A stretch of 64,000 nucleotides of DNA. Origin: Paracoccaceae bacterium. GTDB taxonomy: Bacteria; Pseudomonadota; Alphaproteobacteria; Rhodobacterales; Rhodobacteraceae. The stretch lies in NCBI GenBank assembly GCA_902635985.1, contig CACPPZ010000003.1, forward strand, positions 19,614 to 83,613, in the 5' to 3' direction. Positions 9,031-63,617 of the stretch are shown one piece after another; the stretch's first letter is position 1, and every line of letters starts with the position of its first letter. Below the pieces are notes generated by a model. It did not search any database and was not told where the DNA came from. It worked only from the letters and a program-made list of their open reading frames with translations. Both the position numbers and the translations under genes were made by a program.

Positions 9031-9215
9031 GTTTTCAGTTGAAGCCACCTATCACAAAACTTCCTACGTTAAAAAGTTTTCTCAATTTACCTGTCCTTTT
9101 AGATTGGTCAAATCTGAAGCACCAAGCCGTAGTTTTGGGGCACCCTTCGGTAAACCTTACAGTACTGGGGAGTTTCCAAATAATCAGTCAACCGCTCCAG
9201 AAAAATAGTTAAATA

Positions 9216-10091
9216 ATGACTGAAGTTTCAGTAATAATCCCAACATATAATCGAGAGAAATTTATCTCAGAATGTGTTCAATCAGTTCTGGCTCAAACAT
9301 TGTCTGCACGTGAGATTATTATAGTTGATGATGGATCCACTGATGCAACATATAATATTCTACGTGACATAGGATTTAATTCCTTAAGCACTAAAAAGAC
9401 TATTTTGCGCTATTTTTTTCAACAGAATCGAGGGGTGAGCTCTGCAAGAAATTTAGGAATTAAGGAAGCAAGAAGTGAGTATATTGCACTGTTAGATTCT
9501 GATGATCTTTGGTTAAAAAGTAAGCTTGATCGGCAGGTAAGTGCATTTCAGAATGATACACAGAGTAGTCGGCTGTGTCACACTGACGAAATATGGATAC
9601 GCAATGGGGTTCGCGTAAACCAACACAAAAAACATAAGAAACATGGAGGCAATGTTTTCCAAAGCTGTCTCAAATTATGTTGTATATCTCCAAGTTCAAC
9701 AATGATGCATAGATCAGTTTTCGAGGACTTTGGGTTTTTTGATGAGGACTTACCAGCCTGTGAGGATTATGATTTCTGGTTGCGGTACAGTGCAAAAGAG
9801 GATGTAAATTTCATTGATGAACCTTTAATCATCAAAAAAGGCGGTCACAGTGACCAGCTTTCAGGTGCACACTGGGGTATGGATAGATTTCGAATATATT
9901 CTATTGAGAAGATATTAAAGGAGCCTGATCTCAAGCTTGTTCACAAAACTGAGGCGATCCATGAGGTCATATTAAAGTTGGAAATTTTGATAAATGGATC
10001 TCAAAAGCGCCAAAAATTCGCTTATGCAGAGAATATGCTTCAGAAGAAGCAACATTGGGAGGCTATATTAATGCGCGGTTTAAATGATTGA
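9216..10091 (+). CDS. Glycosyltransferase family 2
   Basis: SVIIPTYNREKFISECVQSVLAQ, IIVDDGSTDAT, ALLDSDDLW, CEDYDFWLRY. Confidence 0.9.
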   Translation: MTEVSVIIPTYNREKFISECVQSVLAQTLSAREIIIVDDGSTDATYNILRDIGFNSLSTKKTILRYFFQQNRGVSSARNLGIKEARSEYIALLDSDDLWLKSKLDRQVSAFQNDTQSSRLCHTDEIWIRNGVRVNQHKKHKKHGGNVFQSCLKLCCISPSSTMMHRSVFEDFGFFDEDLPACEDYDFWLRYSAKEDVNFIDEPLIIKKGGHSDQLSGAHWGMDRFRIYSIEKILKEPDLKLVHKTEAIHEVILKLEILINGSQKRQKFAYAENMLQKKQHWEAILMRGLND

Positions 10092-10941
10092 AAGTTTTTA
10101 TAGTCAAGGCTGTGAGGTCAAAATCTGTTGGGTGATAGCATTAGAACCTGAAGCAAGGCCACTTATTGATTTATTTGATCTAAGCCCACTTTCGAATAAT
10201 TTAAATTTCCCTGTGTATATAAACTCAAAGAGTGGGCATGCTCTTGTGATATCTGGAATTGGTTCAAGTAAAGCCGCCGCGGCAGCCACCTATTTAAAAA
10301 TGTTGTTTAATGTTCAGAGGTATGTCGGGTGGATTAACATCGGAATTGCTGGGTTCTATGAAGAACCAATTGGGCAACTATTCCAAGCGATAAAGGTTCA
10401 TGATACAGCAAGAAAAACGTCATATTTTCCGGGTTTCCGACTATCAAAAATAGTCAAATGCCAAACACTGCATACCGTTGCCCAGCCAGAAACAACATAT
10501 TCAGACGCTGTACTTTTTGATATGGAAGCATCAGGTTTTTGTGAGATCGCCTCTATGTTTTCCTGTAATGAATTGGTATTCGTTTTAAAAATCGTATCCG
10601 ATACACCAAAAAGCCCTGTGAGTTCAGTCTCAAGAGAAGAAATTACGCAATTGATATATCAAAATAAAGATAAACTTCGTGAAATAATTAGTCACATAGA
10701 AAAATTAGTGAATGATGAGAAAACAAGACTGCACGTACCAGAAGAAGTTTATCAATATTTTGAAAGGTATCATTTTACTCAGAGTAATAGATATAGATTT
10801 TTGCAAGCATATAAAAAATGGAAGTCTGCATTTCCCGATGGAAAATTAGCACGTACTCTAGCCACAGGAAACTCCGCTTCAGAATTAATTTCTAATCTCG
10901 AAAGTGAGCTTTTTTTAGCAATAAAAGACTGGAAACTCTAA
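10084..10941 (+). CDS. Nucleoside phosphorylase / nucleosidase-like protein (PNP_UDP-type fold) with C-terminal extension
   Basis: CWVIALEPEARPLIDLF, VISGIGSSKAAAAATYL, WINIGIAGF, LFDMEASGFCEIAS, LKIVSDTP. Confidence 0.75.
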   Translation: MIESFYSQGCEVKICWVIALEPEARPLIDLFDLSPLSNNLNFPVYINSKSGHALVISGIGSSKAAAAATYLKMLFNVQRYVGWINIGIAGFYEEPIGQLFQAIKVHDTARKTSYFPGFRLSKIVKCQTLHTVAQPETTYSDAVLFDMEASGFCEIASMFSCNELVFVLKIVSDTPKSPVSSVSREEITQLIYQNKDKLREIISHIEKLVNDEKTRLHVPEEVYQYFERYHFTQSNRYRFLQAYKKWKSAFPDGKLARTLATGNSASELISNLESELFLAIKDWKL

Positions 10942-11933
10942 TGATCGATAGCATTTTTGTAGAGCGTGAAGTCCTAGATCATCCAGTTGCACAAAAAATT
11001 TTTAAACGCCTCAAGTACGCTGATATTTTTGAGATTGAAAGATATCAAGAGATGTTTAATCGGAGGAAACAGAACTTTCGTATTCAAAAACAAAACCCTG
11101 CTTTAATTTTAGCAAAAAAACATGATAATTTTGTTTTACCGGCACCATCAGGTTTTGGTATTGATGCACAAAAAAATTATTATTTTTCTCACATGTATAA
11201 CTGTATCTATGATTGCCGATACTGTTTTTTACAAGGTATGTACTCTTCTGCAAACTACGTTTTATTTGTAAATTATGAGGATTTTTTCGAAGCAATTTCT
11301 GATACAATTTATGAAAATACTAATAAAAGTATGACTTTTTTTTCTGGTTATGACTGTGACTCCTTAGCATTCGAAAAAATTACAGGTTTTGCAGAAAAAG
11401 CATTAGAATTTTTTACTAATTTCAGTTCAGTTGAACTTGAACTTAGAACTAAAAGTATAGTCTCTGACACTTTCTTAAACAGAAGTCCTATTTCTAATTG
11501 TGTCGTAGCTTATAGTTTGTCTCCCAGTAATGTCTCTGCCATTTTGGATAATAAGGCTCCCAGTATAGACAGACGAATTAATGTTTTGCAGAAACTAGCC
11601 AAAAATGGTTGGCCCGTTGGCCTCAGGTTTGACCCTCTGATTTACTGCTCTGACTGGGAAAAACTTTATTCAGAGCTGATTAACAAAATATTCAAGGATA
11701 TAAACATTGACCAAGTTCACTCTGTAAGTCACGGTCCCCTGAGATACCCTAAAGAAATGTATAAAAAAATTACGTCACTATATCCAGATGATAAACTTTT
11801 TTCATTTCCAATGGAGGCTAAGGATGGAATTGTATCTTATGGTAAAGAAATAGAGGAAGAAATGTCTTCATTTCTGCAATCTGAATTAGAAAAGTATACA
11901 ACAAGGAATAAAATTTTTCGTTGTTTGGTTTGA
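10941..11933 (+). CDS. Spore photoproduct lyase-like radical SAM protein
   Basis: CX3CX2C radical SAM motif in YYFSHMYNCIYDCRYCFLQGMYSSANYVLFVNYEDF; APSIDRRINVLQKLAKNGWPVGLRFDPLIY as in SPL-family proteins. Confidence 0.85.
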   Translation: MIDSIFVEREVLDHPVAQKIFKRLKYADIFEIERYQEMFNRRKQNFRIQKQNPALILAKKHDNFVLPAPSGFGIDAQKNYYFSHMYNCIYDCRYCFLQGMYSSANYVLFVNYEDFFEAISDTIYENTNKSMTFFSGYDCDSLAFEKITGFAEKALEFFTNFSSVELELRTKSIVSDTFLNRSPISNCVVAYSLSPSNVSAILDNKAPSIDRRINVLQKLAKNGWPVGLRFDPLIYCSDWEKLYSELINKIFKDINIDQVHSVSHGPLRYPKEMYKKITSLYPDDKLFSFPMEAKDGIVSYGKEIEEEMSSFLQSELEKYTTRNKIFRCLV

Positions 11934-11942
11934 TGCTGGAGT

Positions 11943-12656
11943 TTGCAAAATTTGGAAAAAAGAAAAGCGATTGTTTCTGGTAGTTCAAGTGGCATTGGAA
12001 AAGAAATTACTTCACTACTATTAAAAAGTGGAACTGATGTAATAGGTCTTGCACGCGATCACAAAAAATTCAAACCAGACTTTGATGGTTATTTTCCTAT
12101 TTCAATTGATCTATCGGATTTTGAAAAAACTGAGCGTATTATTCCGCAGGTTTTGCATCAACACTCTGACGTTGACGTATTAATTTGTAATGCTGGTTTT
12201 GGTGATTTTCGAACCTTGGAGAATTTTTCTGCTAAGCAAATATCGGATTTTATAAATATAAATTTAATATCACATATAATGCTTTGTAGACACTTAGTGA
12301 GTTTTATGAAAGCTAAGGGTAATGGTGACATTATTATCATGGGTTCAGAGGCTTCTATAGTTGGAAAGAAAAAGGCATCACTTTATTCGGCTGCAAAGTT
12401 TGGTCTGAGAGGTTTTGCTCAATCACTTCGTGATGAATGTGGCAATACTGGCGTGAGGGTTTGTTTGATAAACCCTGGTTTTGTAAGAACCCCATTTTTT
12501 GATACTTTAAATTTTAAGCCTGGGGAGGATGGAAATAATGCAATTGAGCCAGGCGACATTGCTAAAATAGTATGTGATATTATTGAAACCAGAAAGGGTA
12601 CAAACATTGATGAAATCAACGTATCGCCAGCATCTAAGTCGATAATATTCAAATAA
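11943..12656 (+). CDS. Short-chain dehydrogenase/reductase
   Basis: AIVSGSSSGIGKEI, LICNAGFGDF, YSAAKFGLRGFAQSLRDE; TTG start, 9 bp after the SPL-like gene. Confidence 0.88.
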   Translation: MQNLEKRKAIVSGSSSGIGKEITSLLLKSGTDVIGLARDHKKFKPDFDGYFPISIDLSDFEKTERIIPQVLHQHSDVDVLICNAGFGDFRTLENFSAKQISDFININLISHIMLCRHLVSFMKAKGNGDIIIMGSEASIVGKKKASLYSAAKFGLRGFAQSLRDECGNTGVRVCLINPGFVRTPFFDTLNFKPGEDGNNAIEPGDIAKIVCDIIETRKGTNIDEINVSPASKSIIFK

Positions 12657-63521: not shown

Positions 63522-63617
63522 GGAAGAGGATCGCACCCTGGTGGGGCGCCTAGACTTCAAATCTAGTGAGAGGCGTACCACGTCTCTGGTGGGTTCGACT
63601 CCCACGCTCTTTCGCCA
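63522..63617 (+). tRNA. selC: tRNA-Sec (anticodon TCA)
   Basis: Roughly 96 nt with long variable arm; anticodon arm CTAGA-CTTCAAA-TCTAG; GGTTCGACTCC T-arm; encoded CCA; immediately after selB. Confidence 0.95.

Follow-up and report, generated by a model that had tools for sequence, protein, structure and literature searches.

A spore photoproduct lyase-like radical SAM enzyme and an MTAN-type nucleosidase form the core of a conserved gene cassette and a candidate adenosyl adduct pathway

Within a 64,000-nucleotide stretch of the genome of a Paracoccaceae bacterium (assembly GCA_902635985.1, contig CACPPZ010000003.1, positions 19,614 to 83,613; hereafter the window), a cassette of four genes encodes a family 2 glycosyltransferase (GT2), an MTAN-like nucleosidase, a radical S-adenosylmethionine (SAM) enzyme resembling spore photoproduct lyase (SPL), and a short-chain dehydrogenase/reductase (SDR). 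We tentatively favour a reading in which the SPL-like enzyme and the nucleosidase form a dedicated pair in a radical pathway that consumes SAM, with the SDR and GT2 acting downstream. The observations behind this reading are the co-conservation of the genes, their co-occurrence when unlinked, a fusion of the core proteins in one record, the retention of catalytic residues in three of the enzymes, and the loss of the hydrogen-donor network of SPL. With a little less confidence again, we propose that a subfamily of the SPL fold has turned to adenosyl addition and, together with a nucleosidase to which it is sometimes fused, produces ribosyl- or ribitol-bearing metabolites or lipids of a new class in marine proteobacteria, other gammaproteobacteria, fusobacteria and probably gut clostridia.

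The four open reading frames (ORFs) had been predicted to lie on one strand and to overlap or abut, and their coordinates, strand and spacing are all confirmed, with overlaps of 8 bp between the GT2 and nucleosidase genes and 1 bp between the nucleosidase and SPL genes, and a gap of 9 bp before the SDR gene. The order GT2-nucleosidase-SPL-SDR recurs at approximately 50 alphaproteobacterial loci with sufficient flanking sequence, at SPL identities down to about 50%. Named genomes contributed 54 loci, most of them labelled SAR116 and some Rhodobacteraceae or Rhodospirillales (taxon labels of such single-cell and metagenome-assembled records may be unreliable), in which this order is kept as far as the contigs reach; only one of them lies outside the Alphaproteobacteria (L065, labelled Methylococcaceae), with GT2-nucleosidase-SPL and no SDR, and L066 has a shortened SPL frame only. 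When all neighbouring genes were clustered, the four cassette genes alone were common to loci throughout, with flanks that differ by lineage, and flanking genes were rejected as additional members given that none is common to different groups. Repeated at so many alphaproteobacterial loci with differing flanks, and again in divergent Gammaproteobacteria, the arrangement far exceeds chance, and the co-conservation on which the original prediction depended is thereby upheld.

Distribution is nonetheless patchy within the window's own family. The SPL gene is present in 13 of 16 genomes of the window's genus and missing from about 25 other genomes of the family, and among 385 sampled alphaproteobacterial genomes full-length, high-scoring members occur only in that genus and in two other streamlined groups (f9 and f23). 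This patchiness, together with a cassette G+C content of 35.3% (the window has 41.4%, and the genes that flank the cassette 42-43%), suggests that the cassette was horizontally acquired in the window's lineage. The nucleosidase and SPL genes form the core in all three alphaproteobacterial groups: f23 has the arrangement GT2-nucleosidase-SPL, and order f9 has the nucleosidase-SPL pair only (22 of 32 genomes), and the seven f9 genomes tested lack GT2 and SDR orthologues at other sites too. At f9 loci (L082:9271-11305, L083, L198, L199 and others) genes for a Cas4/PD-(D/E)XK-like nuclease and an ATP-dependent DNA ligase regularly come after the pair. At L086:8509-11551 the nucleosidase and SPL genes are separated by a carbamoyltransferase (PF16861/PF02543) and a TPR-like protein.

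The cassette had been framed as an alphaproteobacterial set, and while it is indeed a co-conserved unit, it also occurs in Gammaproteobacteria, Fusobacteriota and two fecal contigs. Searches with an SPL profile recovered full-length members (E below 1e-118) from 37 of 274 gammaproteobacterial genomes, the class of L065. In 31 of these 37 the nucleosidase lies directly upstream of SPL, with a degenerate remnant in one more; an SDR follows downstream in 23, and 24 have a GT2 within 4.5 kb. Genomes without an adjacent nucleosidase may still encode it at another site, as do G1045 (same contig, 430 kb away), G975 (beside the GT2, in another context), G872, and G949, where the separation is probably a contig break; no nucleosidase was found in the 1.4-Mb assembly G855. 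Likewise, non-adjacent GT2 genes are present elsewhere in G867, G997, G1038, G797 and G1054, such that most gammaproteobacteria with nucleosidase and SPL have a GT2 either adjacent or elsewhere, unlike SDR orthologues, which are mostly missing where they are not adjacent. In a class sample the nucleosidase occurs in 5 of 190, all of them cassette lineages. From these counts of adjacency and of unlinked orthologues, the core of the unit is the nucleosidase and SPL; GT2 often accompanies them as a third member, linked or not, and the SDR is common but replaceable. The proposed four-gene unit is therefore real, but two of its members are dispensable. Some gammaproteobacterial loci carry a small dual-specificity-phosphatase-like gene between GT2 and nucleosidase (L120:8758-9240, L130:5957-6463), and a sodium/solute symporter-like gene lies downstream of SPL in L120, L129 and L130.

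Outside the proteobacteria, Fusobacterium vincentii (NZ_CP084075) encodes the nucleosidase and SPL domains in a single ORF of 623 amino acids, followed by an SDR. Two fecal contigs, deposited as phages yet bacterial-looking and probably from Clostridia, carry nucleosidase-SPL-SDR (L162) and SDR-(160-aa ORF)-SPL (L161). Pairwise distances of the four cassette proteins correlate at 0.85-0.90 over 37 loci, in part reflecting shared organismal history. Given the fusion, and the persistence of the nucleosidase where the genes are unlinked, its partnership with SPL is the strongest feature of the unit. Regarding the records themselves, MT835514 and MT835770 are listed as ‘bacteriophage’ and resemble bacterial contigs, and NZ_CP084075 is a 2.1-Mb Fusobacterium replicon labelled as a plasmid that is probably a chromosome. 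A viral origin was considered and rejected: searches of viral sequences with the window protein and with the Fusobacterium fusion gave no match. The SPL profile reached no more than two viral contigs (L079:3886-4803, L080:5926-6843), whose SPL-like gene is distant, has none of the partners and adjoins a DNA methyltransferase-like gene and phage-like genes.

The second cassette protein, predicted to be a PNP/MTAN-like nucleosidase, does have the MTAN fold, although it is of the hydrolytic MTAN type rather than a generic PNP. Its score against PF01048 (PNP_UDP_1) is 19.0 bits, below the Pfam gathering score of 25.1, and its structural model (pLDDT 90) comprises an MTAN domain (residues ~12-200) and a C-terminal helical domain (~201-285), the latter missing in f23 and in one f9 member. 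The best Foldseek matches are MTAN and futalosine hydrolase (E=1e-12; 2h8g and others). Residues E23, M147, E148 and D173, the equivalents of MTAN E12, M173, E174 and D197, are kept in nearly all relatives (E23 in 104/104, E148 in 98/107, D173 in 99/107); we take Glu12, Glu174 and Asp197 of E. coli MTAN to be catalytic, a view with which the titles of mutant structures agree. With this fold and these residues retained, the expected substrate is an adenosyl nucleoside. Losses fall almost wholly in one supported SAR116 clade (L054, L055, L058-L061, L064), whose nucleosidase lacks E148 and D173 and is a probable conserved pseudoenzyme; its ORF is nonetheless intact, stays in the operon and still encodes E23 and the C-terminal domain. 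Its retention, in line with the fusion in Fusobacterium, suggests that the nucleosidase has a structural role alongside catalysis.

For the third protein, the predicted SPL-family radical SAM identity stands (PF20903, E=2e-23), as does the suspicion that it is no canonical repair enzyme. The best structural match to its model (pLDDT 81.5, with low confidence at the 4Fe-4S loop) is SPL (4fhc/4fhf; TM ~0.7, E=8e-15), far ahead of all else, and in an alignment of 65 members of the clade the CX3CX2C cysteines C88, C92 and C95 are invariant (65/65). In SPL itself, Cys141 (Bs numbering) donates hydrogen to the thymine allyl radical and is refilled by Tyr99, whereas Tyr97 helps to regenerate the 5'-deoxyadenosyl radical and SAM (PMC5368176). 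The donor position, Cys141(Bs)/Cys140(Gt), is Y137 here (Tyr in 64/65, His in one), and the relay Tyr99(Bs)/Tyr98(Gt) is F96 (Phe in 62/65, Tyr in Fusobacterium and the two fecal sequences), while the equivalent of Tyr97(Bs) is retained as Y94. Two residues past the lost donor, Cys139 is present in 58/65 and may represent a shifted donor; Thr, Ala, Gly or Ser replaces it in the rest, including Fusobacterium. Since the Cys of clostridial SPL sits elsewhere in the sequence (PMC5368176), absence of Cys141 alone is not proof against SPL function. However, because Cys141 and Tyr99 are replaced together, and because the TIGR04070 equivalog score is low (100.6 bits against a cut-off of 400; a Bacillus velezensis SplB control scored 516.9), canonical SPL function appears unlikely for the cassette enzyme.

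A maximum-likelihood tree places the cassette SPLs of Alphaproteobacteria, Gammaproteobacteria, Fusobacterium and the fecal contigs in one clade (starred; support 100/96), apart from Bacillus SplB, a Nostoc SPL-family protein and other SPL-like proteins. Because the program flagged several long branches, the precise placement of outgroups is uncertain. No nucleosidase, GT2 or SDR neighbours were found for SPL-like proteins outside the cassette clade. On residues, separate clade and score together, a canonical photoproduct lyase identity was rejected.

Both remaining enzymes are predicted to be active from their conserved motifs. In 28 cassette SDRs, including that of Fusobacterium, the N107-S135-Y148-K152 tetrad and R38 are invariant, as is the GxxxGIG motif (G13/G17/I18/G19); an invariant Arg after the second strand is usual in NADPH-binding SDRs, hence the enzyme is predicted to be NADPH-dependent. 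The cassette GT2s constitute one family with invariant DSDD (D94/D96/D97), HxxEIW, CEDYDxW and GGHxDQLS motifs, and the conserved D94-S-D96-D97 and C182-E183-D184 correspond to the DXD and acidic catalytic motifs of the GT-A fold.

Under the reading we favour, the SPL-like enzyme would cleave SAM and the resulting 5'-deoxyadenosyl radical would add to an unsaturated acceptor, making SAM a co-substrate, as opposed to SPL, in which it is regenerated; replacement of Cys141 and Tyr99 fits such consumption. The nucleosidase would then hydrolyse the N-glycosidic bond, so that adenine is lost and a 5-substituted 5-deoxyribose remains; the SDR would reduce the freed aldose with NADPH and, where present, GT2 would glycosylate the product. 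The most telling point is the dedicated partner that releases adenine: SPL proper has no need of one, since it regenerates SAM. The acceptor, the order of steps and adduct formation itself are all inferred, adenosyl addition from the nucleosidase partnership only. A precedent exists in hopanoid biosynthesis, in which HpnH attaches a 5'-deoxyadenosyl group to diploptene before HpnG takes off the adenine, and in which the ribosyl intermediate of extended hopanoids must become a polyol through an enzyme still to be established (PMC12583986). The original prediction of a non-repair radical step, with the nucleosidase processing its product, is plausible, but its chemistry is drawn by analogy. Comparable chemistry to that of HpnH and HpnG is performed by MqnE/MqnB and by ArsS.

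Several observations weigh against adduct formation, and some of them favour the main alternative, which we judge to be unlikely overall: that the SPL-like enzyme performs ordinary hydrogen abstraction with stoichiometric SAM, the nucleosidase only destroys inhibitory 5'-deoxyadenosine, and the SDR and GT2 act on the modified metabolite. The SPL-like conservation profile is compatible with plain hydrogen abstraction too, and retained MTAN catalytic residues would serve clearance as well. GT2-SPL-SDR is kept alongside a catalytically depleted nucleosidase in the SAR116 clade described above, so that deadenylation there would be either dispensable or supplied by another enzyme, and f9 and G994/G862 hold the pair without a GT2 or SDR orthologue. 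Clearance explains both the tolerance of a nucleosidase without catalytic residues and the pair standing by itself, and the degenerate clade and bare pairs fit it about as well as adduct formation, or better. The fusion is seen in one record only and could be an assembly error, though the linker reads like normal protein, and the logic of the pathway rests on analogy. Nevertheless, clearance is normally a task for a housekeeping enzyme, and most tested hosts have another PNP_UDP_1 member; clearance alone also leaves unexplained the fusion, the retention of the degenerate protein and the co-inheritance of SDR and GT2, two enzymes that suit the adduct reading better (reduction of the ribose, then glycosylation).

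An improbable further explanation is that the SPL-like enzyme repairs or modifies damaged or modified DNA or RNA, with the MTAN-like protein handling a nucleoside product or serving as a binding subunit. SPL fold and homology are consistent with this, as are the nuclease and ligase that follow the f9 pair, a gene of the uracil-DNA glycosylase superfamily close to the Fusobacterium fusion (L160:9687-10283), and DUF4130 together with an HHH-containing radical SAM gene near the fecal copy in L161 (1226-3324). However, these DNA-repair neighbours differ between groups, the hydrogen-donor Cys and relay Tyr of SPL are replaced, the clade is separate from SplB, GT2 and SDR are poor partners for repair, and a defence-system library contained no match for the cassette. 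Moreover, the enzyme also occurs in Fusobacterium, a non-sporulating genus with little exposure to light. It is very improbable that the four genes are only loosely related, brought together by coincidence or joint mobility and serving no shared pathway: low G+C and patchy presence in the window's family point to horizontal transfer, and GT2 and SDR are dispensable, yet an order kept over some 50 loci with differing flanks, correlated divergence, unlinked co-occurrence and the fusion all argue otherwise.

Coordinates of the cassette genes are given in Table 1. A scan for promoters at the locus returned no more sites than in shuffled sequences, and no RNA families were matched there. Immediately upstream (window 9031-9215) lies a remnant of an arginase/agmatinase-like ureohydrolase gene, in which approximately the first 60 codons are kept and several hundred bp are lost; at L014 (5333-6013), L015, L017 and L018 an arginase/agmatinase-like gene lies between a BKACE gene and GT2. 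A selenocysteine tRNA gene is predicted at 63522-63617 of the window.

Table 1 Genes of the cassette, in window coordinates
Feature	Position	Strand	Details
GT2 glycosyltransferase, first cassette gene	9216..10091	+	291 aa; PF00535 E=5e-35
MTAN-like nucleosidase, second gene	10084..10941	+	285 aa; PNP_UDP_1 E=1e-3
SPL-like radical SAM enzyme, core gene	10941..11933	+	330 aa; PF20903 E=2e-23, CX3CX2C
Classical SDR, fourth gene	11943..12656	+	237 aa, TTG start; PF00106 E=1e-40

The cassette is built from known folds and follows a logic with precedents, yet the unit, ancient and widely shared, appears to be undescribed, as does its chemistry. Family libraries give only spore photoproduct lyase names, with scores far under cut-off, and our search of the open-access literature found no work that links SPL to SAR116 or, in the sense meant here, to a nucleosidase. 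If our reading is correct, a protein filed by annotation under spore photoproduct lyase would be part of an undescribed biosynthetic unit in several phyla, and would provide one more independent example of radical adenosylation with subsequent deadenylation, chemistry known from few pathways. The fused Fusobacterium protein and the linked pair offer direct material for finding the substrate.

In comparison with known systems, the cassette shares with HpnH/HpnG/HpnI the combination of a radical SAM enzyme, an adenine-removing enzyme and a glycosyltransferase in one set, as originally predicted with the proviso that the proteins differ, and departs from it in that HpnH belongs to a radical SAM family other than SPL. 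No HpnH (TIGR03470) scored over cut-off in four genomes of the window's genus (G000, G002, G003, G006) or in the SAR116-labelled genomes tested, on which basis membership of the hopanoid pathway was rejected and the cassette is taken to be independent of it; true HpnH is present only in some f9 and f23 genomes, which carry the cassette as well. TIGR03886 and other SPL-like families (L152-L157) belong to the same SPL superfamily, and some have a GxxxDSLA stretch, but they lie outside the cassette clade and lack its neighbours. SplB (TIGR04070; 4fhc, 4k9r) has the same overall fold (TM ~0.7), CX3CX2C motif and Tyr97(Bs) equivalent, yet is partnered with SplA, whereas the cassette enzyme is partnered with a nucleosidase and an SDR. 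Finally, MTAN and the futalosine hydrolase MqnB share with the cassette nucleosidase their fold and the equivalents of Glu12, Glu174 and Asp197, whereas the cassette protein falls below the Pfam gathering score, bears an extra C-terminal helical domain and is tied to an SPL-like partner.

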